A DNA stretch of 64,000 nucleotides, taken from NCBI RefSeq assembly GCF_964204645.1, contig NC_134029.1, positions 4,349,001 through 4,413,000 of the forward strand, read 5' to 3'. The stretch comes from Tubulanus polymorphus (taxonomy: Eukaryota > Nemertea > Palaeonemertea > Tubulaniformes > Tubulanidae). A program made the position numbers and the translations under genes. The notes under the pieces were generated by a model. The model had not been told where the DNA came from and did not search any database. It was given only the letters and a program-made list of their open reading frames with translations. Positions 444-53,630 of this stretch are shown in pieces; the stretch's first letter is position 1; every line of letters begins with the position of its first letter.

Positions 444-449
444 TTTATT
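444..449 (-). terminator. AATAAA polyadenylation signal, copy A
   Basis: TTTATT on the plus strand reads AATAAA on the minus strand, about 50 bases beyond the copy A stop codon. The corresponding place after copy C has lost this hexamer. Confidence 0.5.
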
Positions 450-497
450 TTCAAATTCAAATTTCGTACAATCAAATGGTAAATTGCGGAAGATCAT

Positions 498-2571
498 TTA
501 GAATGCAACCCAGTCCTTGTAGTTGAATTTGTCTGAGCCGGGATCTTCGCAGTCTTTCTTGATGCAGACCATGTGATTTAGAGCAGTAGGATTATCTGTG
601 ATAAAATATGAAATATCCATTCACTTCCATCAATACAAACGTTTTACAATACATTCAACTATGGCTATTGATACTATGTATATAGAAATTATCTCGACCA
701 GTAAACATTTCGAAGATAGTGCAAAAAATTTACTTTGCCATTCTTTGTCTTGACAGTAAGCTTGACGAATGTTCACGATATCGAAATAACTTGATGAAGG
801 TTTTTGTCTGTACATAGCGACAATATCAGGCTCCTTTTCGCCGAGTTCGGTCAGTTTTGTGTTGACTTTCTCAACGATATTTTCCTTTAGGACAAAATTC
901 TTCTTCGTGTAAACTCTCAAAGCGGACATTATGTTATACGGAGTATTGAAGTAAAAGCTGTCGTCTGGGAACTTCGCCATCAGTTTTTGAGCTCCGCTAC
1001 CTACGTAATGGTAGATTAGTTTTTATATTTTGAAGATCATCTGTCATATGCAAGAAAGATCGTTAGGCCTAACAGGTTTAATGTCTATCACTATGCCTAC
1101 AATATGGTAGGCTAATAGGTAAAATTTCAAATGATATGTTTTTTATTAGAATTTCGCCAGTAAGGTATTTTTATGGATTATGAGGCTATTCCTTGATATT
1201 TCGGAGACCAACTGATAACGAAACGACGTTAGGCTTAAGTGTAATGCTTATCACTATGCAACCAGTAAATTTCGTTCCTGCGTATGCTTGAGATAGAAGT
1301 TATGCAATACATCTAAAATTACGTACAATTTACCCAGCCCTTCATGCTCGTGTCAACAAATGTATCCCGTATCGGTCTATTAGTCTGTTTCATCAGTCCA
1401 AGTCGTTTGAACATAGCGCTGTTGAAGCCATCCTGGTCTTTCAGTAAATTACACGAGCCTTTGTAGGTGGACGTGAGACGAATTTCGTTAAATCTACTGC
1501 CGGCATTTCCACTGTAATACGACCCACAGTAGGTACTGAAAATGGAGGAATGAATCTAAGTTCCTTTGATCTGTATGTTGACGTTAATGGAAGATTTTTT
1601 TTGTAAATGCAAAATCTAAGACATTTTGTTTTAAGTCTATCAATGATATAGAAAACAAAAATACTAACCTTGACATTTTAAATGTGATGAAACTGTTGTT
1701 TGGAGTCCGCTTTTCAGATTTCAGCCTGAAACCGATGCAAGATTTCGTGCTGTCCTGTATTTTACCGATTAGCTTTTTGAAACGGTTTAATCGCCTTTTC
1801 AGATCGGTCACATTCGCTTCCGCTAGAAGGTAAAACACGGGATCATATTTCAATCAAATGACAGGAAGGAAGGAATATCCCCAAAATATATACGATATCA
1901 TTCTATAGGAACAATGAATGCAAACAACTATACATTTTCTTCAAACACTTACAGAATTCACCCTCAAGGATATACTCAACTCGAGAGGCATCACCCCAAA
2001 GTTTTTGTTTGTGATCAGGATTATAGCTTTCAGAAACCTATAAATATAGTTGCACTTCATTCTACTTCTTTACATCATTACGCAAATTCAGCGAGAGCAA
2101 AAATTAGAAATCACTTATTTTTTGAATATATCAACACAGATGGCGCTTTGAAATACTAAGTTCATTTCGAAAGGCTCAGAACATTACTAAAACTTATATA
2201 ATCTATTCAATTTATCATATCTATAACTAGAAATGATATATTTTATTAAACAAAACAATAGCTTAGATCTGAATATATTGAAATGAATAAAAAAGAAAAG
2301 AATTCGTCATGTAGGGGAGGAAAAAAGGTTACTCCAAACATATCTGAAAGCTTAGCCATTTTGAAAAAAATCGGAAATCTAAAGCACGCATTCAAAACAA
2401 ACAAATGCTGGAAGAAGAAACACAATGACAAACATAGAATTTGTCTCGAGGTAGAAATAGTCCATGCCCTCATGAATATGGTACCAGAATAATATGATCA
2501 TTTGAAAATACCTGATAAATGCAGAACAGAGCGAGCACGGCGGCGAGAACGTGGACAGATTCCATCTTCAT
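498..2571 (-). CDS. secreted cysteine-containing protein, copy A (six exons)
   Basis: I do not recognise the family. Coding exons on the minus strand are 2512-2571, 1953-2037, 1669-1822, 1327-1535, 734-1000 and 498-595. All junctions are GT-AG and in phase, giving 290 codons plus stop. The first exon encodes a hydrophobic leader (MKMESVHVLAAVLALFC) typical of a signal peptide, so the product is probably secreted. The mature part has scattered cysteines, including a YCGSYY motif in exon 4 and a CxxxxCED segment near the end (from VCIKKDCEDP), and finishes in KDWVAF. Exon 2 is 85 bases, three longer than in copy C, and is the most divergent exon (SESYNPDHKQ against SGYNPDARQ). Other differences are single substitutions, such as serine for proline beside the exon 4 cysteine. 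No frame-disrupting change was seen, so it looks functional. Confidence 0.78.
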
Positions 2572-2967
2572 CTATCGAATGATTTCAACTACGAAGATCT
2601 TCACCTTTTATGCAAATCGCATACTACATGCCTACTTAATGCTAAGCCGTACTTCAACAGATTATTTTGTGCGAATTGCTAAATATAAATCAGTTAATCC
2701 TGCATTTCTTGTCAAACTGAATAACACCAGGCTCTTTTTGATACTTAAAGGTATTATTGCAACCCCGGTGAAACAAGTAGGCCTCTTTCGTCCAATTCAT
2801 TAAATAAACGTATTTTCGAATTCGTCGTTATTCATCATAATTTCTGTTCAGCGCATGGCTTCATGCCACAACAAAACTAAATTAGTACATACGGAATCCA
2901 TTTTGAATGAATCAACAGAAATTGACAGATTGAGAATCATTACACACGAGCATAATCGAATAGAATC

Positions 2968-3443
2968 TTACAACAAATGATTGTTCATCAACTCTAAAAA
3001 CGGACATTCTGTAATACACGGGGTACAGAAGTAAAAGTTGTCATATGGGAACTTCGCCAACAGTTTTCGAGCTCCGCTGCCTACAATATAATCGGTTACT
3101 TCGCGCGATGTTTAAGGAGGGCACCCTGCAGAAGTAATTGTAACTTTGTCCAGTGTTTCACGCAGAGTACGGTGTTTATATGACTGACGAAATTTTAGAT
3201 TATTTCACCAAAACGGCCTTTGTTAATGATTTAGATACGTAGAAGTTATATACGCTAAACTTACGTACAATTTACACAACCCTTCATGCTCGTTTCAACA
3301 AAGGTATCTCGTATAGGTCTGTTAGTCTGTTTCATCATTCGTTTGAACATAGCGCTGTTGAAGCCATCCTGGTCTTTCAGTAAATTACACGGGCCTTTGT
3401 AGGTGGATGTGGACAGATTCCACCATCTATTGAATGATTTCAA
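2968..3443 (-). pseudogene. chimeric, shortened third copy (copy B) of the secreted-protein gene
   Basis: Two exon remnants are present on the minus strand. 3269-3443 matches the second half of exon 4, but its upstream side is fused directly to the 5' leader and start region of exon 1, so exons 2 and 3 and the signal peptide are missing. 2968-3080 matches the start of exon 5. The exon 4 donor (T|GTACGT) and exon 5 acceptor (TGTAG|GC) survive and keep phase, so a 95-residue reading frame starting MKSFNRWWNL is still open. Compared with the intact copies it lacks two codons in the MFKR-LGL segment, replaces tryptophan by cysteine near the exon 4 end, and diverges after FPYDNFYF into a different tail. 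With no leader it is more likely a relic than a working gene. Confidence 0.6.
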
Positions 3444-3788
3444 CTACGGGAATTTATCTTTTATGCAAATCGCACCCTAAAACTTGTTACTTAAATAATT
3501 AGGATTCGAAACGATTTTCAATTCAATAAATATCAAGTGCTTTCGAACCACAATACATGCACACGGCGAACAACGATTTCACTGAGACAAATTTAAAAAC
3601 AAAATAAATCGGTAATTTTGATTTCTATCAAACAATGCAACACCAGGTCCTTTTGGAGACCCGGAATTTCTTTTTACCAAATCAAACCAGAGAGTGAATA
3701 AATTCAGAATACATCGATATTTACCCTAATGATATTACAATATTGAAAAATCGGGTTAAGCCCGTTTCAATCGATTAAACACTACTAT

Positions 3789-4430
3789 AACACCAGGCTC
3801 TTGTTTGGGGGAAAGCATTCAGCTATTCCCGCAAATAATGTCGGTTAAGCCTTTGAAAGATCTTATCAATAAATACAAATCCTCGAATGCATTTAGCTCA
3901 ACAGCCGGCCATATTTCTACCATCTATATGTATATAATACCAAATATACATAAATCGTATTTTGATACGTATATCGTTAAGAGATACACTTTGCTTTCCT
4001 CCTTATAATTGTTGTTAGGGTTTTCTGCTTTTTCACAGAATAACTAATGTTGCTTTCCGTCGGAATAAAAATGATGATGATAATCACTATTAATCATGAT
4101 CATTAGTAATGATAATGATAATAGTAATCATTTATGATTTCATTTCCCCTTTTCAAGCACCCCAAAAGTCAATTAAAAACCTAAGGCTCCTAAACTGCTA
4201 GATGGATTTCTACCCCATCTTCTAGGATTTTACTTTAAGCCCAATACCTAATAAAGCAAACCGATAGGTGTCAACGTGATGGCTCCATGTAAACAATTTG
4301 AGGCCAAGCTCCATAATTACACGTATTGTGACAATTATCTTTAGTGGCTTGGATCATGGACGTATAAATTTTGAAAAAATTCGGACATCTAAAGCAAGCA
4401 TTCAAAACAAACAAGGGCCTGGTGTTAGTA
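3789..4430. mobile_element. small element bounded by 17-18 bp inverted repeats
   Basis: TAACACCAGGCTCTTGTTT at 3789 is mirrored by AAACAAGGGCCTGGTGTTA ending at 4430, one mismatch apart. The interior is about 640 bases, AT-rich, with a GATAAT-type simple repeat at 4070-4130 and no convincing gene. Related termini occur nearby at about 2722, 3642 and 4540. It resembles a non-autonomous DNA transposon; no clear target-site duplication was identified. Confidence 0.4.
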
Positions 4431-4667
4431 TGTGTTCAAAAGATGGCAATGAGCTTAACCGATTTAGACCCGGATCGATGTAGATCTAGATTCATTCTGA
4501 ATGTGCTAGCCTAGTTTTTAAGGTTTTCCGGTCTTTAAAAGGGCCGGGTGTTACATTGTTCGATAGAAAATCACTTTCTGTTGATCCAATAATCGTTATT
4601 CAGAAGCATAAGTATGAGGGTCCGATTCGCATAAAAGAAGTTGAAATTATTTGAAATCATTCGATAG

Positions 4668-6903
4668 ATGAAGATGGAATCTGTCCACGTTTTCGCCGCC
4701 GTGCTCGCTCTGTTCTGCGTTTATCAGGTATTTTCAAATGATTATATTATTCTGGTACCGTAGCCACTAGGGCATGGACTATTTCCACCTTGTGACAAAT
4801 TCTATGTGCTTGTCTTTCCTCCTCCAGCATTTGTTTGTTTTGAATGCTTGCATGCTTGCTTGCTTGCGATTTTTTTCAAAATGGCTAAGCATTCGGATAT
4901 GTTTGGAGTAACCCTTTCTCCTTCTCAACGAGTTCTTGCATTTTATTAATTCTAATATATTCAGATCTAAGCTATTGTTTTTTTTTCTATATAATATATG
5001 ATTTCTAAGTATAAATATTATTAGTTAAATAAATTATATAAATTTCAGTAATGTTCTGTGCATTTTGAAATGAACTTAGTATTTCAAACCGCCATCCGTT
5101 CTGATATATTCAAAAATAAAGTGATCTCTACTTTTTGCTCTCGCTGAATTTGCGTGATGATGATAAGTAAAATTAAGTGCAACTATATTCATGTTTAATG
5201 GCAAGTTAAACAAATTATACAAGTTTCACTAATTATCAAAGCATTTCGAAATGACCTATGTATTTCTAAACAGTCAATTCCGTGCTGATGTATTGAAAAA
5301 TGAATGACCTGTAATTTGCGTAATGATGATAAGAATTAGAATAAAGTGCAACTATATATTCATAGGTTTCTGGCTATAATCCTGATGCCAGACAGAAGCT
5401 GTGGGGCGATGCCTCTCGAGTTGAGTATATCCTTGAGGGTGAATTCTGTAAGTGTTTGAAGAAAATGTATAGTTGTTTGCATTCATTGGTTTCTGTAAAA
5501 TGATATCGTATATATTTTGGGGATATTCCTTCCTTCCTGTCATTTGATTGAAATATGATCCCGTGTTTTACCTTCTAGCGGAAGCGAATGTGACCGATCT
5601 GAAAAGGCGATTAAACGGTTTCAAAAAGCTAATCGGTAAAATACAGGACAGCACGAAATCTTGCATCGGTTTCAGGCCGAAATCTGAAAAGCGGACTCCA
5701 AAAAACAGTTTCATCACATTTAAAATGTCAAGGTTAGTATTTTTGTTTTCTATATCATAGATAGACTTATAACAAAATGTCTTAGATTTTGCATTCAAAA
5801 AAATCTTCCATTAACGTCAACATACAGATCAAAGGAACTTAGATTCAATCCTCCATTTTCAGTACCTACTGTGGGTCGTATTACAGTGGAAATGCCGGCA
5901 GTAGATTTAACGAAATTCGTCTCACGTCCACCTACAAAGGCCCGTGTAATTTACTGAAAGACCAGGATGGCTTCAACAGCGCTATGTTCAAACGACTTGG
6001 ACTGATGAAACAGACTAATAGACCGATACGGGATACATTTGTTGACACGAGCATGAAGGGCTGGGTAAATTGTACGTAATTTTAGATGTATTGCATAACG
6101 TCTATCTCAAGCATACGCAGGAACGAAATTTACTGGTTGCATAGTGATAAGCATTTCACCTAAGCCTAACGTCGTTTCGTTATCAGTTGGTCTCCGAAAT
6201 ATCAAGGAATAGCCTCATAATCCATAAAAATACCTTATTGGCGAAAGTCTAATAAAAAAACATATCATTTGAAATTTTACCTATTAACCTACCATATTGT
6301 AGGCATAGTGATAGACATTAAACCTGTTAGGCCTAACGATCTTTCTTGCATATGACAGATGATCTTCAAAATATAAAAACTAATCTACCATTACGTAGGT
6401 AGCGGAGCTCAAAAACTGATGGCGAAGTTCCCAGACGACAGCTTTTACTTCAATACTCCGTATAACATAATGTCCGCTTTGAGAGTTTACACGAAGAAGA
6501 ATTTTGTCCTAAAGGAAAATATCGTTGAGAAAGTCAACACAAAACTGACCGAACTCGGCGAAAAGGAGCCTGATATTGTCGCTATGTACAGACAAAAACC
6601 TTCATCAAGTTATTTCGATATCGTGAACATTCGTCAAGCTTACTGTCAAGACAAAGAATGGCAAAGTAAATTTTTTGCACTATCTTCGAAATGTTTACTG
6701 GTCGAGATAATTTCTATATACATAGTATCAATAGCCATAGTTGAATGTATTGTAAAACGTTTGTTTTGATGGTTAAGTGAATGGATATTTCATATTTTAT
6801 CACAGATAATCCTACTGCTCTAAATCACATGGTCTGCATCATGGAAGACTGCGAAGATCCTGGCTCAGACAAATTCAACTACAAGGACTGGGTTGCATTC
6901 TAA
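4668..6903 (+). CDS. secreted cysteine-containing protein, copy C (six exons)
   Basis: Exons are 4668-4727, 5366-5447, 5579-5732, 5863-6071, 6399-6665 and 6806-6903, with intron phases 0, 1, 2, 1, 1. They total 870 bases (289 residues plus stop). The start is the ATG opening a 20-residue hydrophobic leader ending FCVYQ, read as a signal peptide. The mature chain carries cysteines in the segments KSCIGF, TYCGSYYSG, KGPCNLL, VNCSGAQ, AYCQDK and MVCIMEDCEDP, and lysine-rich helical-looking stretches in exons 3 and 5. No transmembrane segment or GPI signal is visible. The family is unknown to me. It is the divergently oriented partner of copy A, with starts about 2.1 kb apart, so the two may share upstream control sequence (inference). 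Confidence 0.8.
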
Positions 6904-7078
6904 ATAATCTTCCGCAATTTACCATTTGATTGTACGGAATTTGAATTTAAAGATAAGAATTTGAGACCATCGATTCCGACGATATCAACTACAAGAAGTT
7001 TTGACGACGGTTGCTTTCTAATTGATCGCTGTGCACAATCATTTGCAGTTAAATTGTACGTCCTTTGAATTCAGATAG

Positions 7079-15469: not shown

Positions 15470-17729
15470 TGCGTGTTAATGATATCAACTAACTCTGAAA
15501 AACCTCAATTGTGTCTCTTTATTGTTGAATGGAGTTACCGAAGGTTCAACTGCCGGGTTGAGCACGCGCCAGTAGCCAGCTGAACAATCGTGGAACTTTA
15601 ATAAGGCCATAAATATAAATTACTTGATTCCCAACAGCTCCCCCCTAATTTAGCCACCGCCTGTTTTTTTTCTTTAAATTTTAGAATAATTTATTGAAAT
15701 TGAAGAATAAAAACGTTAACATTTATTGATGAAAACCTCTAGCTTTATTTCTCATAAATGCATAGCTTCCCCGAAATGGTGACATAAATAATTCCAAGTT
15801 GTTCAAGGCTAAACAAAAATGATACTTTGTTTCTTCGCAGCGGCCGGGTCATTTTGGTTAGATATAATAAAATTTGTAATCAGTTCCTGCCGGGTCTTTT
15901 ATAGGGTTATGGTATAAATTAATCACGATTTTAAAAACAGTGTAGCAGGCCTACAGGCCCGGTATGAGCCCGTCTGTCAATAGAGGGAGACAGCACCGAT
16001 CCTCTGAAATTCTGCCAAAGACTTCTTTACCATTCATAATCTAAAAAAAGATTTTTTCTTTAATTTTGATATTGGAGTAAACGGTAAATCGTAAGTCGTT
16101 AGGTTTTGAAGGAAAAACGTCGTGTATTTTATATATTTTAGATTGTTCGAAATTAATTTCTTGTTTTTAAATTCTTTTAATTTGTAGATAGTTGGTTTTT
16201 ATCTTCTTTACTTAATTATCCGTTCACCGCGTTTGAGTTTGGTTATCGTTCAATCGAGTTTAGTTACTATCGACATTTCGTCTATAAAATGCAAAGTTTT
16301 CATTTTCTATCGGGACCTGTGACAGGGATGTCCCGTCACAGGCCCCAGGTCCTCTCACGGGACATGCTGCACTGCTGCAGTTTAACCTGTTTCAAACAAA
16401 CATGGCGAATGCGGAAGCGACAGAACAGTTTCCATCATCATCATCTGTCTATTTCCACTTAACTTGAGAACACGTCGGGTGACCTGGCTCAGTTAGTAGA
16501 TGCCCGATAAATGTTTGAATACCTGGATGATGTGCGAATTCCCCTACAGTACAACGATTGTTTGGGAACATCCGCACGGCTGGATTGACGAACAAAATCT
16601 TTCGTCCGTCGCGTCGTTGGCGTCGTGTAAAAAATAGTGGAGCTGGAGGCCCAATTTATATATTATCACTCATATAGAGCATTAATAGCAGCAAGCACAG
16701 GGACTTGTCACAATTGATGATAATGTAAAGTTGACCAGTGACGAGTGTCTGGGTATCCTCCAACAATGGGAAAGTGACAGTTATTTTTGCATCTTTGACT
16801 TTGTTGTTGGTGGATAGATATAGATATAGGCCTGCTATTTTGAATTGAAGGCCACCAGAAATGATTGAAATAAAAAGCAAGGGTGGTAAGCCCATAGCAG
16901 TTGAGTAGGCCTGGTCAAATCTTAGTTTAATTTCGTGGGACCCAATTTAATAATGATAGGCCTAGTCAAAATGACATCCTTGACCTAGTCTGTATACCAG
17001 TCGTTGTTACCGGTCCCCTACTACCCCTGTTTGGGGGACAACGGCTAGGTACTAGACTATCCTTGACCAAGCAAATAGCACCAACAAATTAAAATATTTA
17101 GTGTTTTGATAGCAGGCATTGTCTGACTCAAACCGTGCTCATCTTTCCTGATCTGCAATGTTCAAAAAACGACCAGGGTCCGAGACAGATGATTAGTTTA
17201 CCTGCTGTATCCTAGGTTGACCCTCCAGTTCCAGTATCCTCTAGGGTGAACTCTTTAATCAGATCGGAGAATCTGTTTGCCTCCGATCGTACTCTATTAT
17301 TCGTCACGTAACCCTTTGGAGAGTCCAAAACCTCCTTTCTGTCGAGGTGGTGTGATTCGGATTTTGTGTGGAGCCAACCGCAGATTTCGGATGGAGACTT
17401 CGGAGGTCATAAAAGAGTACGCCCCTAGGTTTATGATCATCTTCCATGATACCGGTATACAAAGTCGCGTCAGGGCCTGGTGCCAAAACCTAGTGTTCAC
17501 CTAGTGACCGTTTGATCTTTTCACTTATAGCGATTCATCCCTGCAAACTGGGTCCAGTTCCACAGTTCTGAGTTCAGATTTGACCCTGGGTTAAAACATT
17601 GAAAATGAACTAACTTTAACTCTAACTCTAGAGTTAACTCTAACTCACAACTGTGGAACTGGGTCCTGGACAAAGAAATGTCAATGCGAATGGGACCAAA
17701 TAACTTAACAATTTCCTTTTGATTTTCAG
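15470..17729. other. upstream region of DENND4, non-coding with hairpins
   Basis: No convincing coding exon. A GC-richer stretch at about 16310-16640 is a candidate promoter or 5' untranslated exon. It holds a hairpin (CCTGTGAC and its mirror, 16314-16342) and a 21-codon open frame from an ATG at 16402 that could be an upstream ORF. 16985-17060 contains an imperfect inverted repeat, CTAGTCTGTATACC with its near mirror. Confidence 0.4.
17549..17668. repeat. fold-back repeat with GAACTGGGTCC ends
   Basis: GGTCCAGTTCCACAGTT near 17552 is mirrored by AACTGTGGAACTGGGTCC near 17648, and the centre holds TAACTC repeats. The same GAACTGGGTCCTGG-like sequence recurs at about 19370, 34362, 34852, 36238 and 36970, so this is a dispersed family, present here as one full copy and several partial ones. 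Confidence 0.5.
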
Positions 17730-17738
17730 CGCCGTAAT

Positions 17739-20700
17739 ATGGATGATAAAAGAGTTGTCGATTATTTCGTCGTAGCTGGTCTGCCAGCGAATCCGCTTCC
17801 TCTTGAAGAATTCTCCAACGAAGCGATCTTGAAACCGACGCATAAACAGGATCCGATTACGGACGTGATCGTCATTATCAAAAACGCCGGCGAGTCGCCG
17901 CCGAAAGGATTCACGTGCATCGAAAAAACACCGACGGGCTATCCATCGGATTTAAACCATGGCAGTATACGCGCGCCCGAAATGTATCTCTGTTATAAAC
18001 GAGGACGCAACAAACCACCCCTCACAGACATCGGGTAAATACTTCTTTATCAATAGTAGCGTTGAAATAAACGCAGCAATGATGATAATGATCTTTTAAA
18101 GATCATCATTACCGCGTTTGTTTCAATAGGTCCATTCAAAGTTTAATATTATTAAACATTGAATGGACCTCAATCATTGACGATGCTGTGCCTTCACACT
18201 GTGTCTTAAATTCAGCTGTTATCACTCGTCCAGTTTAGACACAACACTGTGATTCGCAGGAAATAAGAGCATTAAGTTTCTATTCATGCACGGAAAAATG
18301 ATCTGTTTTCAAATGGACCTGGCTAGGTCTTTTTGGTCGATGGATCAGACTCAATTTGAATATGCGATGCCAAGTCGTGGGTTCTTACCCCGTACATTAA
18401 TGCAGTGTCAAGCATATCCTCATTTATCTGGCTCCTGATGACTCATGAGCGCTAAGTAGTTGCTTGGATGATTCTTCTATGGGACAAATATGATGCCGGG
18501 GTAATAATACCAATGACATTGATCGCATTCATTGTGGATAAATGGGCATTTGGAATACTGTTGGGATCATTAGCTCATGAAACAAACAAAATCATTACTT
18601 AACTTGCATTAGAAAAGCCTTCGACTTTTTAATGAAATGATAATGAAAGTGAAACTTCCCTGGAACATCTTATGTATGAAAGAGGCATGATCCTTCGCTA
18701 TATTGCGATTCTATTGTCGATGTTTGTTTTTGCAGAGTTCTGTACGAAGGTAAAGAACGGGTTATGTCCGGCTGCGAGGTCGTTTACGTGACACCTCAAG
18801 GTCGTCCGGCGAACGTGAATAATTCTAATTCGCAGCGTATATACATCACGTACCGGCGTGCTAATGAGAATGCTGCCTCTGACACGCTCGCTGTCACTGA
18901 AATCTGCATTATTCTGGCGAATAAGGTAATTGGGAAATTCAGGATCAGATGGTTTCAGTCAGATCAAGCAAGTTCTGTACAATGTAGTTCTCTTTCTGTA
19001 GTTCTGAGAATTGATTATGAAAAATTAAGAGTTAAAATTAAAAAGTTATTTGAAATGTGGGGAAAATATGGACAATTAAAGGACAGGCTTTTGCGGCAAA
19101 AGATAATCGAAGTGTTGTTCATAGATATCCGCAAATGTTTCAATGGGCCGAATCAGGGATCACGGGTTTAAAGAGTTTAGAAAATTATCGGAACCACAAA
19201 AAGATTCTGGGATAAAATGCAGGAGTTGCAAACAAGCTGCTAGAGCATCATTTGCGTCCACTGCAGTATTTTACTGGCAAAAAAACTTTGCTCTATTCGA
19301 GTTAAAACATCGGAAATGAACTAATTATATATCTAGTGACAAAGTTGACCAAATGTAACGATTGATGTGGTACTGGGTCCTATTTTAGAATTGCTCTCAT
19401 AATGACGAAAAAGATCTGTTTTCACAGCAGAGAGTCTATTGAATGCATTTACCGGTACCGGTACCTATATCCTACAGCGAACAATCTCTTTTGATTTTTA
19501 GGGTGAAATGGCACCGCACGCTTTTTGCCAGATAAATAAGAATTTAAACAGAGGAATGGTAAGATTTGAAACTCTTTATTATATAAGATAGAGATTTTAA
19601 ACCAGAAAAAAGAATTATGTCAATGCCAGAAGAAATTATGGTAAAACTCGATATATTTTTCAGGTTGGTTCTGACGTTTTTTTATGCTACAAAAAATCGA
19701 TGGTTAAAACTAATACGATCGCTTATAATCCAGGTATGTCAAATATGGTGGTTCACACGTTTCAAAATAGACTGTTCTAATTCATTTATTTATGTACAGT
19801 AAACTTGCTTAAAAGTTGGATCGAAGTCGGATAATTGGGAAATAATTTCTAGGTCCAGAGTTTTCCGCTCAATTTCCCTTATAAAATCTCTAAGCTGGTT
19901 CTTATCAATCGGATTCTCGCCTTAGTCGGACAAATATTTTATCCCCATAAGTCTGAAATATAGGAAATTATATTCCCCAAGACAGACGCGTCATTGATTT
20001 AGTCAAATAACTCTTCTTACTTAACGCGAGTACTTTCTAAAACGAACTCTACGTATTTATGTTTCAGGATGCTTGGGTCGTTATCCGCTGGAAGACCATG
20101 CCGATTTCCCATTGCCCGAATCTGTGCCATTGTTTTGTTTGCCGATGGGTTCGACTCTGGAATGTTGGCCGCAGCAAACGCAGCACCCGCTGCCCGTGTT
20201 CTCGACGTTCATTCTGACCGGTTCCTCAGTCGAAAAGGTTGATATCAATTTGAATCCCAATTTTGTTATCCCTTAACAGTGCGTCTACACTGTAGTGCAG
20301 TGTATGAATCAGTGTTTGACTCAGTTATGAAGTTTAAAAAAAGTTTTCAAATATTTAAGCTTTATGATTGAGTTTGAATGGTCGTCATTGAAAGTACAAC
20401 GTAAAGTAACCGATAGCAATTATCAAACCAAAATTTGACTTAGACCTTTTCGTGAGACTTAACCCGTGGTCTCATCAATCTGAGATCATCTTGCTAGAAA
20501 ATTCTTCGCCAGCCTCTGCCATTAACGTATCTGTGTGCTAGCTTGATTGAGCAATACAAAAATCATTAAATAACGTTTGTATTTTTCGAAGGTTTACGGC
20601 GCCGCGGTCACGTTCTACGAAGAATACGAACAGGATAAACTAACCGATCTGCAGCAGCGGTTACTCGGACTGAAGGAGCCAAAGTCGTCGTCGAAACAGC

Positions 20701-38332: not shown

Positions 38333-38560
38333 TCACGCTATCGCGGCGTTGGAAAATTTATACCACTCGTATGCCACAGTAGGAATTTCAATCCGTGAAA
38401 TCTTAATAAATCTCTGCCCATCGTAGATGGCAAATACGTGAACGAACTTATTGCCACATCTCATGCCGGTCGGCTTGATTCCAGAAATATATGTTGCAAA
38501 TAGATACGTAGGTCGAAGGCGATGCCCGACTAGGCCTATGATTTTATAAATCGCATTTTC
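38333..38560 (-). pseudogene. possible terminal exon of an unknown minus-strand gene
   Basis: A minus-strand frame of about 75 residues (from VENAIYKIIGLVGH through MRCGNKFVHVFAIYDGQRF to YEWYKFSNAAIA) looks protein-like. It is followed within about 15 bases of its stop by TAATAAATAATAA, containing a polyadenylation hexamer. Its upstream end is cut off by the receptor fragment beginning at 38562, so only a terminal piece remains. A candidate acceptor (AATCATAG|GCC) lies just inside. No family recognised. Confidence 0.3.
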
Positions 38561-38561
38561 C

Positions 38562-39252
38562 ACTTCCCATTCTATCATTGGTCGGAAGTATATCTTCTAT
38601 ATTGAGTCTGTTGTTTGCTGTTTTCGTTCACTTGTTCCTGCCACAACTGGGAACTTTTCCAGGACTTCTCTTAGTGAATTTAAGCTTCGCCCTTATCGTT
38701 TCTCACGTCCTGATAATAGCATCGGTGAACATACATTCGCTGCGTGTCTGCGAGATTTTGGTTATTCTCAAACACTACATGTGGCTCGTTGTTTTCACCT
38801 CTATGAACGCCGTCGGAATCAATATGGCTTACACATTCAACAAGAAGTTCCAACTCGAAACCGCTACGACCAACATCAAACGCTGATTATTTGCAAATTA
38901 TGCCTTTATTTGGTGTATTCCCCTCGTGGCTTTGGTCCCTTGCTTATACCTCCATCTCAGTCCGGACACACAACTGAAGTCAACCGTCTACGGAAATTTG
39001 AAAAGTTGTTGGATCAAGAATTCCCAATTCCAGATTTATGGGTTTATACTTCCTGTCGCCTAATCGGTTTCATTCAATTTATTTATGTTTGGGTTGATCG
39101 TTCGGGGTATCCGCCTTTCGATAAAATCCATCAATAGGTGGCAGCCTTCGGAACAGTATGGCGCGAAGAAGGAACTGCCAATATTCTTACGCGTATTTGC
39201 TGCCATCGGACTGACTTGGTTAATAGGGTTCATTGCTAGTTTAGTCGGAAAC
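38562..39252 (+). pseudogene. partial duplicate of the 7TM receptor membrane domain
   Basis: These 691 bases match 41451-42141 without any gap at about 97% identity by eye, covering TM1 to TM6 of the downstream receptor. The copy lacks the ectodomain, start codon and TM7, and has an in-frame TGA at 38884-38886 where the intact gene has AGA, just after the TM3-side NIKR motif. Both boundaries are abrupt. It is a recent, dead, 5'- and 3'-truncated tandem duplicate. Confidence 0.85.
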
Positions 39253-39574: not shown

Positions 39575-42306
39575 ATGAATATGCGCTTTCTGATAGTTTC
39601 ATTTCTGTTTGGTAAGTTAACGTACATCGTAGATACCCGATCGATAAATGTTTGAGACTCTAGTCAGCGTTCATCCTCAAAAAGATATATAATGCTGTAA
39701 TGATAAACTGTTAAATGCATTGAACCCATGTCTTTATTTCAGCCCTGTGTGAAGGCAGTATTGGTCCTAACGAATACATGACTTTTCGACGCGTCAAACT
39801 CATTGAGGGCAACATCGGAAACTTTTCGTTTTCGTATCATATGCCGTATAATCGAACGGATTCATTCGGACAACGAGTTCCTTATTGTAAAAACATAGTG
39901 TGCTTTGAAAAACATGAAGATTTATGCCACGTTTTCGGGGACTGTTGCGAGCCAAGTTTACTCCATGATACTAACTCGCATTCATCACGGGTAACTCAGC
40001 TGAGTTCCGAGGTTCCATTCGCTTCGTGTCATAGTTTCGAGTTTCGCTATCCACCTTACAATGTTTGGGCAATAAGCAAGTGTCCTCCGGATTATACAGG
40101 TAACCTGCTCATCAGGAAGCTCTGCGAGGATGAAGACGGTAGCCATATCGTCTCTTCAATGCCAGTTTATAGGAAAGACAGAATCTTACCATTCAGGAAT
40201 TCATTCTGCGCCCGTTGTCACGGGTATTCGATGGAAGAAATACAATTTTTGGAAGCTGAACTTTTTTGCGGAGGTTCATATATTACAGTGGAACAAGTGA
40301 TGAACGAAATAGGTAAAACTGGTAAATACCCGACTGATAACTGCACAGTTCTATATGAAAATGAGAAAACAGACGTCAACCAATCTCCACTATATAGACA
40401 ATGTACGAGAAGTAATCAACTGCCTGTAGTTTTGTATCCACCCAACTTCAGCATCGAACCTATAAGAAATCCAGAGAGTTTTGAATGCAGAGCCTGCACG
40501 TATGTGACTGGTGTGGTGAGTCGGCTAAAAAATAATCAACTCATAGAGTATAAAAGCATTTACTGTATTGCATGTTACCACAATGATTTCGAAATGGACT
40601 TGGACGATCTTCGGTGCGTTGATCATTCAAACGTTGTCATCGATCGGGACCTTCAAGGTCTGAGGATTCTTTTGGACTTCAATCTGGTGGAAGGGCTACA
40701 GATTCATACATCCGACGGACGCGTCACTAACTTAGAGTCGAAAGACGCAATTTGTCGTCAGGAAGAAGATTATGAATCTAAAACTGGAACATGTGTTAAA
40801 GAAATTTGCTTGTCAGGATTCATAAAACATAACAATGAATGTATTCTAGATGAGACCGATTTAGGCATAAAGGCAACGATTTATGTTGGATTTCATTTCA
40901 TATCCAACAAAACTGTTATGGGAATACCGATTGGTTTATATATAAAACGTTATCTACAGTCGGGTGTCAATTATCCTGCTGTTATGAATGACTACGTTCA
41001 AGTAAATACGTCTCACTTTCGGTCGAGCTTTTTTCACGTTGATATTCACGAATTTCGTCGCGCTGACACAATTTTCAGTTCCGATGACGTGCGAAACTTG
41101 ACAGAAACGACGATTAAATACATTCGAAAATGGTTCAGATCGCAAAGTATGGATACTCTTGAAATCGACGAGGAAAACTTTGAGATGGTCTCTCTAGCCG
41201 CTAACAGCAACTGTAGCGCTGGTTACATGGTCAACGAGACTGTTCACGTGAGTTCGAAGCATATCGGACTCAGAGAAAGGCAGACTGTTCTGTTCGATGT
41301 AAGGAAAACGCCGAACGGATCAGTTATTACTAAGAAGGTTTGTCGAACTCCGCTTACAGATTGTTTACGACGTTCAGGCGAAAGGGAAAATAATACTTGT
41401 ATCTTAGCGCCATCAGTCCCACCGTCAGTTCAACCAGAAAAGCTCCCCCAACTTCCCATTCTATCATTGGTCGGAAGTATATTTTCTATATTGAGTCTGT
41501 TGTTTGCCGTTTTCGTTCACTTGTTCCTGCCACAACTGAGAACTTTTCCAGGACTTCTCATCGTGAATTTAAGCTTCGCCCTTATCGTTTCTCACGTCCT
41601 GATAATAGCATCCGCGAACATACATTCGCTGCGTGTCTGCGAGATTTTGGCTATTCTCAAACACTACATGTGGCTCGTTGTTTTCACCTCTATGAACGCC
41701 GTCGGAATCAATATGGCTTACACATTCAACAAGAAGTTCCAATTCGAAACCGCTACAACCAACATCAAACGCAGATTCTTTGCAAATTATACCCTTATTT
41801 GGTGTATTCCCCTCGTGGCTTTGGTCCCTTGCTTGTACCTACATTTCAGTCCGGACACACAACTGAAGTCAACCGTCTACGGAAATTTGAAAAGTTGTTG
41901 GATCAAGAATTCCCAATTCCAAATTTACGGGTTTATACTCCCTGTCGTCTTATCGGTTTCGTTCAATTTATTTCTGTTTGGGTTGATCGTTCGAGGTATC
42001 CGCCTTTCGATAAAATCCATCAATAGGTGGCAGCCTTCGGAACAGTATGGCGCGAAGAAGGAACTGTCAATATTCTTACGCGTATTTGCTGCCATCGGAC
42101 TGACTTGGTTAATAGGGTTCATTGCTAGTTTAGTCGGAAACCAAATGTTATGGTACACGTTCGAAATTCTAAATTCATTTCAAGGCGTTCTCATATCTAT
42201 AGCTTTTCTTTGCAACCGTCGCGTATTTGGCTTCCTGACTAGACTAAAGACTACTCCGACTGTGGGAAAATTAACAACTGACACGAAAGTAAGCGGCACA
42301 AAATAA
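39575..42306 (+). CDS. methuselah/adhesion-like seven-transmembrane receptor
   Basis: Two coding exons (39575-39611 and 39743-42306; phase 1) give 866 residues. The first 18 residues (MNMRFLIVSFLFALCEGS) form a signal peptide. The extracellular part, to about residue 580, is cysteine-rich (HEDLCHVFGDCCEPS, FCARCHGYS, FECRACTYV, YCIACYHND, CVKEICLSGF). The membrane part follows (first helix ILSLVGSIFSILSLLFAVFV near 584), with family B2-like signatures: LKHYMWLVVFTSMNAVGIN in TM3, GLTWLIGFIASL in TM6 and NSFQGVLISIAFLCNRRVF in TM7. No clear GPS autoproteolysis site (H-L/T-S/T) precedes TM1, which fits methuselah-like rather than classic adhesion receptors. Ligand unknown. The C-terminal tail is short. 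Nearly all coding sequence is in one exon, unlike its neighbours. Confidence 0.85.
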
Positions 42307-50865: not shown

Positions 50866-52107
50866 ATGTATAAGTTTCACTGTGCCATCATTCTCATTTT
50901 AATGGCTGTGTCATGTAAAGGTAAATACGTTTCAAGTTTAAGTATTTTTGGAGACCATCATGGTCCTCAATTTCAATACAATGAATCTGAAAAATGTGAA
51001 TACATTCACATTTTTCAGATTGGTTTCAGATTTTTTGGACGTTAAGGTGAGGATATGATAAGAAAACGTGTTCTACTAAAGTGCTTATTGATATCACAAT
51101 TTTCCTACGTTTAACTTAGCGCAATTATAGCAATAACTGCTATAAGGTCAAACTAAATCATATAAATGTTTAGGTCCTTTTTATACATCGTTTCATACCT
51201 ATGAAACAATACCTAATTCAGGAATTCTTTCTCATTCTGTGTACTCAATAACTGAATAGATTTATGGATATCTACCATAATAGAGTTTTAAAAATCCATA
51301 TATAGAAATAGCATTTTAAAGATATTAGATTGTACATGTATATATATGCGATTGAACTAGCAATGAACCCAGTAATGCTTAAGTATATTTGAATGAATAG
51401 ATTAATTTGCTTTTAGAGCCTGAAACCGTCTAAAATCAGAAATGGTGGACGTTTTCTTTCCATAACTAAGCATGTGAAGGAATGAATTGAATACTGTGTC
51501 ACAGTGTCTGATATTTGCCTAGAAATACCTTGGCCTAAATAGATTGACTGGTCTTAATTCATTTTTCATAGGGATTAATGAGCTAGCACACCATGCTAAG
51601 ACAGAGTACGATTGTTTTGAAGGAGTTTGTTTCGACATCTTAAAAAAATGCCCCCCGCTGAAACCAGTAAAATGTCCAGGTCTTTGTTTGGTAAGTACTA
51701 AAATACTCTTCCTTTACGTCGTACTGGTCAGCTCGTACGTAGAACTCGAGAAGTTTAGTCGATTTTGATCTTTGATTCCCAACGAAACTATTTCTCTCTT
51801 TCACCTACAGAAATATTACTTTGAATTCAACGCTTCGGACGCGTACGTGAAAAAATGTGCCAATAACGAAGGGGCGGATTCGTGTCCGGCTCAACAAACC
51901 GATTATGCCGCTACGTCAGAGGATATCGAGTCTATTTCAACGTTAATTGGTTCGGTCGGTGAAATAGAGTATGTGATGAAAACATGCTGCGCTGATCAAA
52001 TGTACTGTAATTCTGTGGAAATTCTCTATTTCTCGAGAAGAAATATTCTAACGCTTATTTTGATAGGTATGGGTATATCAGGACTCAGTACCGCTGTTAT
52101 CATTTAA
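50866..52107 (+). CDS. Ly6/uPAR-type three-finger surface protein, copy 1
   Basis: Exons 50866-50920, 51572-51690 and 51811-52107 (phases 1 and 0) encode 156 residues. A signal peptide (MYKFHCAIILILMAVSCKG) is followed by a ten-cysteine mature region: YDCFEGVCFDILKKC, VKCPGLC, KKCANNEGADSC and the Ly6 signature TCCADQMYCNS. A hydrophobic C-terminus (NILTLILIGMGISGLSTAVI) fits a GPI-attachment signal or membrane anchor. Three exons with leader, first fingers, then last finger plus anchor is the usual Ly6 gene plan. Likely an extracellular, membrane-tethered modulator; the partner is unknown. The paralogue lies 0.8 kb downstream in the same orientation. Confidence 0.8.
50984..51021. repeat. 18-bp perfect inverted repeat in Ly6 copy 1 intron
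   Basis: AATCTGAAAAATGTGAAT and its exact mirror are separated by two bases, a 38-base near-perfect palindrome able to form a tight hairpin or cruciform. Confidence 0.7.
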
Positions 52108-52884: not shown

Positions 52885-53630
52885 ATGCTGTCTTACAGTA
52901 TTACGGAAATATCGAAGCTTATTTGTATCATCACGTTCGCTTTAATAGCTTTATTATGTAAAGGTAAATTAAATTTAGGACATTTCGAAAATGTATTTTG
53001 ATATTTGAACAAGTCTATTCATCGATTTGAGGATCTATACGTTTTGATAGGTAATCCACAAGCACATACTCTTTCGCCGGAGTATTATTGTTATGAAGGG
53101 GTTTGTGTCGATGTCGTCAAGAAATGTCCCCCACTGGAATCAGTGAAGTGTCCTGGACTGTGTTTGGTAAGTCGTGTTCATACTTTCGAGCAAACTCATT
53201 ACTTTCTCTTTCAACATGGGAAAACCGTCCAGGTCTTCCGATTTCTTCGATTCATCATTTAGCGTCTGGTCCAAACGCTACCGAGTTAGACCATGGCTCT
53301 AAAACAAGCTGTTCAAATGTATTTGTTAAATTACAGAAATACTATTTCAAACTCAACGCCTCGGATGCATATGTGAAAAAATGCGCCAATAACGAAGGGG
53401 TGGATTCGTGTCCGGCTCAACAAACCGATTATGCTGCTACGTCAGAGGATATCCAGTCTATTTCAACGTCCATTGGTTCTGAGTATGAAATAATGAACGC
53501 GATGAAAATATGCTGTGTTGATGGAAAGAACTGCAATTCTGTGGAAAAACTCAATTCTTCGATAAGAAGTATCTTAATGTTTGTTTTGATAGGCTTGGGT
53601 TTTTCTGGACTTTCATTGAAGTTTTTCTGA
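52885..53630 (+). CDS. Ly6/uPAR-type three-finger surface protein, copy 2
   Basis: Exons 52885-52963, 53051-53166 and 53337-53630 encode 162 residues with the same intron phases as copy 1. The leader is longer (MLSYSITEISKLICIITFAL). Mature cysteines are in the same order: YYCYEGVCVDVVKKC, VKCPGLC, KKCANNEGVDSC, ICCVDGKNCNS. The tail is hydrophobic (SILMFVLIGLGFSGLSLKFF). The segment NEGxDSCPAQQTDYAATSED is almost identical between copies, whereas the N-terminal flank and the loop before the CC pair differ. This suggests tandem duplication with local diversification. Confidence 0.8.

Follow-up and report, generated by a model that had tools for sequence, protein, structure and literature searches.

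The 64,000-nucleotide window analysed here (positions 4,349,001 to 4,413,000 of NC_134029.1, contig C5 of the 268 Mb, 77-contig assembly GCF_964204645.1, G000) comes from the nemertean Tubulanus polymorphus and contains two inverted arms, at 445-2591 and 4648-6956, each carrying one copy of the same gene, here called A and B. With a probability which we put at about 0.85, A and B belong to a set of at least five intact pseudo-astacin genes (A to E), which appear to have retained the framework cysteines and the exon plan of the catalytic domain of the astacin metallopeptidases, to have lost its zinc histidines and catalytic glutamate as well as the methionine of the Met-turn and the propeptide, and to carry a short tail with two conserved cysteines. 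The first-pass annotation of this DNA had described two head-to-head arms with intact six-exon copies of a gene for a secreted-looking protein that could be assigned to no family. The arrangement is confirmed by the arm alignment and the exon models, and exon 1, read by eye, is signal-peptide-like; the lack of a family has to be revised, as profile searches, hhalign and the exon plan point to an astacin relative without catalytic residues. The features of the locus and the further copies are the following, in window coordinates.

445-626 and 6775-6956, inverted: arm piece I4, 96% identity
627-1144 and 6255-6772, inverted: arm piece I1, 100% identity over 518 nucleotides
Arm pieces I2 and I3, inverted: 98% and 97% identity, respectively
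498..2571, minus strand: coding span of copy A, 290 amino acids, frame open over six exons (2571-2512, 2037-1953, 1822-1669, 1535-1327, 1000-734, 595-498)
1358..1426, minus strand: putative former zinc and active-site stretch of copy A
About 3000..3470 (approximate ends), minus strand: decayed third copy, located in the A-B spacer, pieces D1-D3
4668..6903, plus strand: coding span of copy B, 289 amino acids, frame open over six exons (4668-4727, 5366-5447, 5579-5732, 5863-6071, 6399-6665, 6806-6903)
4668..4727, plus strand: predicted signal peptide, corresponding to exon 1 of copy B, judged by eye from the translation
5440..6900 (approximate ends), plus strand: tract nearly identical with copy A, comprising exons 3-6 and introns 2-5, from a 100-column divergence profile and intron and exon counts
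5972..6040, plus strand: putative former zinc and active-site stretch of copy B, FNSAMFKRLGLMKQTNRPIRDTF (HExxHxxGxxHExxRxDRD in astacins), as aligned against the eight active astacins read from this genome
6455..6490, plus strand: putative former Met-turn of copy B, TPYNIMSALRVY (xPYDYxSxMHY in astacins), from the alignment
Contig C5, just to the left of the window and on the strand of copy A: copy C, intact (L009)
Contig C9: copy D, intact (L010)
Contig C8: copy E, intact (L011, L012)

The remaining A/B pieces are 84-94% identical. All introns of A and B are of the GT-AG type, with phases 0, 1, 2, 1 and 1. Alternative open splice choices exist in copy B, and the set chosen is the one which matches the exon plan of the paralogues and of the active astacins. 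The junction 6071/6399 was preferred to 6075/6403 because it places the donor 94 nucleotides past the codon which aligns with that of the first zinc histidine, as in eight out of eight active astacin genes. Exon 2 of copy B runs straight on into a mature-type N terminus (..QKLWGD). What is left of the decayed copy in the spacer is part of the 5' flank and exon 1, the latter half of exon 4 together with the beginning of intron 4, and the initial third of exon 5.

Protein searches of the genome found the family at five intact places on three contigs. Identity to the B protein is 96% for A, 83% for C, 72% for D and 42% for E, the last without its first exon. In copy E exons 2-6 were modelled, and the signal-peptide exon is represented by a candidate, MSSILGALVFVSLCASTYQ followed directly by GTAAGT, which is the sole one passing the filter in about 6.3 kb upstream. 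Decayed fragments of exons 1 and 2 sit upstream of copy C. The decayed copy in the spacer and the adjoining intact copy C indicate that the locus is not an isolated palindrome but a small cluster of genes, one of which is inverted. In a tree of 16 domains a branch with support 100/100 separates A to E, on their long stem, from all the others. Further members at about 13.25 Mb of contig C11 (E about 1) were rejected, as their frames carry stops and no motif; an open frame in the same region (L108, 2313-2984) codes for short proline-serine repeats (QSPSHPVT) and is unrelated to the family. Pattern searches of the prokaryote-genome and viral collections gave 57 and 36 matches, respectively, none of which was confirmed by tblastn, as expected for an animal family.

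The relationship to astacins becomes evident when the copies are compared with profiles and with the eight active astacins read from the same genome. Copy D matches the Pfam Astacin domain (PF01400) over residues 32-251 with 25.1 bits (E 1.7e-5; curated cut-off 22.5), and copy C scores slightly under the cut-off with 21.0 bits (E 3e-4). In hhalign, the profile of A to E against that of the eight active astacins gives a probability of 91.7% and a score of 49.3, to be compared with at most 26.6 in 200 column shuffles and 13.4 for the reversed profile. The four framework cysteines of the catalytic domain are aligned in all five copies. Also shared with the astacin family (M12A) are the CxxF motif, the GxxxxxxRPxRD segment, the PY(D/N) segment ahead of the Met-turn, the end DIxxIxxxY..C (DIxxIR..YC), the N-terminal LW segment, and intron places and phases. 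A to E differ from astacins in having no HExxHxxGxxH, catalytic glutamate, Met-turn methionine or propeptide, in the tail with two cysteines, and in the distance from the Met-turn serine to the last framework cysteine, which is 57-58 residues instead of 47-53. Other assignments did not hold: polysaccharide deacetylase, found by phmmer with B in the PDB (E 0.2 and 0.56), is a chance match which is gone with the family profile, DUF3097_C (E 0.16, copy C only) was rejected, and there is no other credible Pfam domain in the A to E proteins. Judged from sequence, A to E descend from astacins.

Three introns are common to the family and the astacin genes of the same genome. For two of them the acceptors or donors in the active genes were scored with the phase left free. 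An intron lies immediately before the second framework cysteine in these genes, where the best acceptor is of phase 2 in seven out of eight and tied in the eighth; the phase-2 intron of A to D lies two residues upstream of this position. A phase-1 donor exactly 94 nucleotides past the first zinc-histidine codon is present in all eight active genes, being top or tied-top in seven and second in L026. The donor of exon 4 in copy B is likewise 94 nucleotides past the aligned codon (5978 to 6072), and A to D all have a phase-1 donor at the matching place. The remaining intron, which is the first of the three in order, has a phase-1 acceptor ahead of the first helix, chosen by eye in 6/6 active genes having that exon and present equally in A to E.

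The zinc-binding histidines, the catalytic glutamate and the Met-turn residues have well established roles in astacins. At the position of HExxHxxGxxH the sequence reads SAMFKRLGLMK in A to D and VAMATRLGLMR in E, so that the zinc site is present in none of the five copies, and the glutamate following the third histidine is replaced by glutamine throughout. The Met-turn SxMH reads SALR in A to D and SHKR in E, with both methionine and histidine replaced. Loss of catalysis in A to E is what these replacements suggest. In A to D the signal exon is spliced straight onto the LW exon, in phase 0 (..YNPDARQKLWGD..), and in E the candidate exon takes its place. At the same place the active astacins L020 and L023 have a longer propeptide-like segment ending in RTRR or EKR. 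With the signal peptide joined straight to a mature-type N terminus, A to E would encode no propeptide. The mature proteins contain seven cysteines in A, B, C and E and eight in D; the odd number makes a disulphide-linked dimer possible, which the eight of D reduce to a suggestion.

Comparison of coding sequences argues that the copies are kept by selection as protein. The ratio of replacement to silent substitution rates (dN/dS) is 0.32 for A-D, 0.31 for B-D and 0.32 for C-D (Fisher p 1.6e-11, 1.1e-11 and 2.7e-10, respectively), which points to purifying selection on D versus A, B and C; comparisons against E are saturated in dS. Exon by exon, dN and dS for B-D are 0.331 and 0.767 in exon 3, 0.074 and 0.436 in exon 4, which contains the putatively dead active site, and 0.134 and 0.659 in exon 5. 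Between A and C, exon 3 (dN 0.329, dS 0.574) is far more diverged than exons 4 and 5. In exon 3, C lies nearer to D (dS 0.315) than it does to A, and a mosaic of this kind suggests exchange between copies. When B is compared with E, the most distant copy, the 23-residue window with the highest conservation anywhere in the protein starts from residue 136 and corresponds to the former active site, with 18 out of 23 residues identical compared to 107 out of 254 overall.

Comparison of A and B showed 14 differences in 724 aligned sites of introns 2-5 and 70 in 460 (15.2%) in intron 1 (Fisher p = 5e-18), with a divergence step near 5440 in B coordinates and a new rise past the stop codon (11/60). 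Both the step and the rise are predicted by conversion of an older inverted duplicate. A and B are homogenised across exons 3-6, for which gene conversion is, from the pattern of divergence, the best explanation, as the first-pass annotation had proposed for most of the arm. An improbable alternative is that only the distal half underwent inverted duplication, in recent time, and that A and B owe their likeness to it, with no conversion between older duplicates; the sharp step would be expected under either process. Against a duplication of this kind, exon 1, intron 1 and exon 2 can be aligned too, at an older level of divergence, in the order and orientation expected and with usable splice sites; an earlier duplication therefore probably took in the whole gene, the distal part being overwritten later. 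The same annotation had reported a codon indel and substitutions in exon 2, which are found (7/82, 8.5%, plus a 3-nucleotide indel), and had read them as a local change of the protein in the residues that follow the signal peptide. Such a localised adaptive change is not supported, since exon 2 evolves no faster than the neighbouring intron 1 (p = 0.12) and simply lies outside the converted tract. The per-exon comparison of dN/dS that it had suggested shows exons 2 and 3 to evolve faster in A-C than exons 4 and 5.

A number of observations weigh against the interpretation of A to E as constrained, non-catalytic descendants of astacins. Individually A, B and E have no Pfam Astacin match, even at E 10. 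Searched by itself, copy B finds nothing in Pfam or NCBIfam and only two chance-level matches in the PDB, from which B, D and the family profile retrieve no astacin by sequence. The stem of the family in the tree is very long, with 4.24 changes per column, and the tree program warned of long branches. As to the loss of catalysis, a tyrosine one residue past the Met-turn position is present in A to D and absent in E, and the MAFFT alignment pairs the Met-turn tyrosine with Tyr199 of B, so that the Met-turn tyrosine may survive; metal may also be bound by other residues. As to selection, overall dN/dS is 0.61 for both A-C and A-B, and exon 2 of A-C has 0.5 silent versus 11.5 replacement changes; the faster evolution of exons 2 and 3 means that parts of the protein may be relaxed or diversifying. 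Finally, conservation between B and D peaks just upstream of the motif, ten windows starting at residues 102-111 being identical in 23/23 residues, versus 22/23 for the motif window.

The astacin complement of the genome is large, with 161 exon matches at E 0.001 in a Pfam-based search. Among the matches listed of these, 87 covered the zinc motif on inspection by eye; HExxHxxGxxH is intact in 78, four (L023, L086, L095, L096) appear to hit an exon end inside the motif, and five are substituted (L079, L081, L085, L098, L099), a count which may miss other substituted genes, since a Pfam-based first look favours intact motifs. The substituted genes are found at C6:10561729-10561920 (L085/L104), C1:24056938 (L099/L105) and C1:24073534 (L098), C4:7056536 (L079/L106) and C8:7633989 (L081/L107). 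Like A to E they have at least one zinc ligand replaced; unlike A to E they keep RPDRD or RSDRD, and L104-L106 have a nearly normal Met-turn region (SLLHY, SLLHF and SVMHL). Grouping them with A to E is unsupported, as L104, L105 and L106 are placed elsewhere in the tree of 16 domains, in which long branches were flagged. Catalysis has apparently been lost more than once, separately, in the same genome.

Inactive relatives of peptidases are described for other families. The accessible passages of a 2024 review of inactive metallopeptidases (PMC11266112) treat inactive ADAMs and CPX/AEBP1 of family M14, which are extracellular and, as A to E may do, combine a peptidase fold with the lack of catalytic residues; in those passages astacin is mentioned once, in a list of metzincins. 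No described astacin pseudoprotease family was found among the matches listed in the openly accessible literature, MEROPS and subscription literature lying outside this scope. In the passages available, the "catalytically inactive" protein of PMC4398375 is a chitinase and not an astacin, and those of PMC2824743 and PMC4826915 mention no inactive astacin.

As to function, the A to E protein would be secreted through its signal peptide, would have an astacin-like fold and would not cleave peptide bonds. The likely mechanism would be to bind rather than to cut, by way of the old cleft, and the first candidate partners would be substrates, inhibitors or zymogens of the many active astacins of the genome. 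We give about equal weight to a regulation of active astacins and to a scaffold whose target is unrelated to proteolysis. The regulatory role, as decoy or inhibitor which binds substrates or propeptides or pairs with the enzymes and so limits proteolysis, is possible if somewhat unlikely when taken singly; it agrees with the many active-looking astacins, with the B-E conservation peak over the former active-site stretch and with the regulation of active metallopeptidases by inactive relatives treated in the available part of PMC11266112, but residues of the cleft have been replaced as well, and the old substrate may no longer fit. The other role, held equally tentatively with a slight leaning in its favour, is that of an extracellular structural, adhesive, egg-coat or defence protein which re-uses the stable astacin scaffold. 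The loss of both propeptide and catalytic residues, the cysteine-bearing tail and the faster exons 2-3 compared to exons 4-5 are consistent with it, although Pfam gives no other credible domain that would speak for such a use.

Decay of astacin pseudogenes, or an assembly artefact which joins two haplotypes, might be suspected from the decayed copy in the A-B spacer and the exon 1-2 fragments upstream of copy C. We consider this very improbable, because five reading frames are intact on three contigs and dN/dS is about 0.3 for D versus A, B and C, with p of 3e-10 or less; two haplotypes, moreover, would not be expected in inverted orientation and with a 15% difference in intron 1, as A and B are. 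The pseudo-astacin interpretation can also be extended, in a form which we consider doubtful, to the proposal that A to E would be the first family of secreted astacin pseudoproteases to be recognised as a dedicated one: a non-catalytic binding module without propeptide, presenting the old catalytic helix as a surface which restrains the organism's own large set of astacins, possibly a disulphide-linked dimer in most copies and kept uniform by gene conversion.

Elsewhere in the window, a long open frame at 39724-42303 on the plus strand, noted together with 38542-39134, codes for a secretin-family seven-transmembrane receptor domain (Pfam 7tm_2, E 7e-18). The open frames 38550-39134 and 41394-42023 have a common stretch, so part of the 7tm_2 frame seems to be duplicated just upstream. 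Two open frames at 51769-52104 and 53097-53627 (plus strand) share a near-identical stretch (NASDAYVKKCANNEG.DSCPAQQTDYAATSEDI.SIST), which represents a small tandem duplication, and have no Pfam match. At 17709-18035 on the plus strand Pfam DUF2464 (multivesicular body subunit 12) is matched weakly (E 0.005, under cut-off), which may mark an exon of an MVB12-like gene.

Many peptidase families are known to include pseudoproteases. That Pfam fails to recognise A, B and E as astacins illustrates how pseudoenzymes escape profile searches. In this nemertean, five intact genes without catalytic residues, in which the part best conserved between B and E, the most distant pair compared, is the former active site, stand amid dozens of active-looking relatives. 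Conservation of the active site in an apparently dead family beside its active relatives would make the question of what a dead astacin binds a directly testable one.

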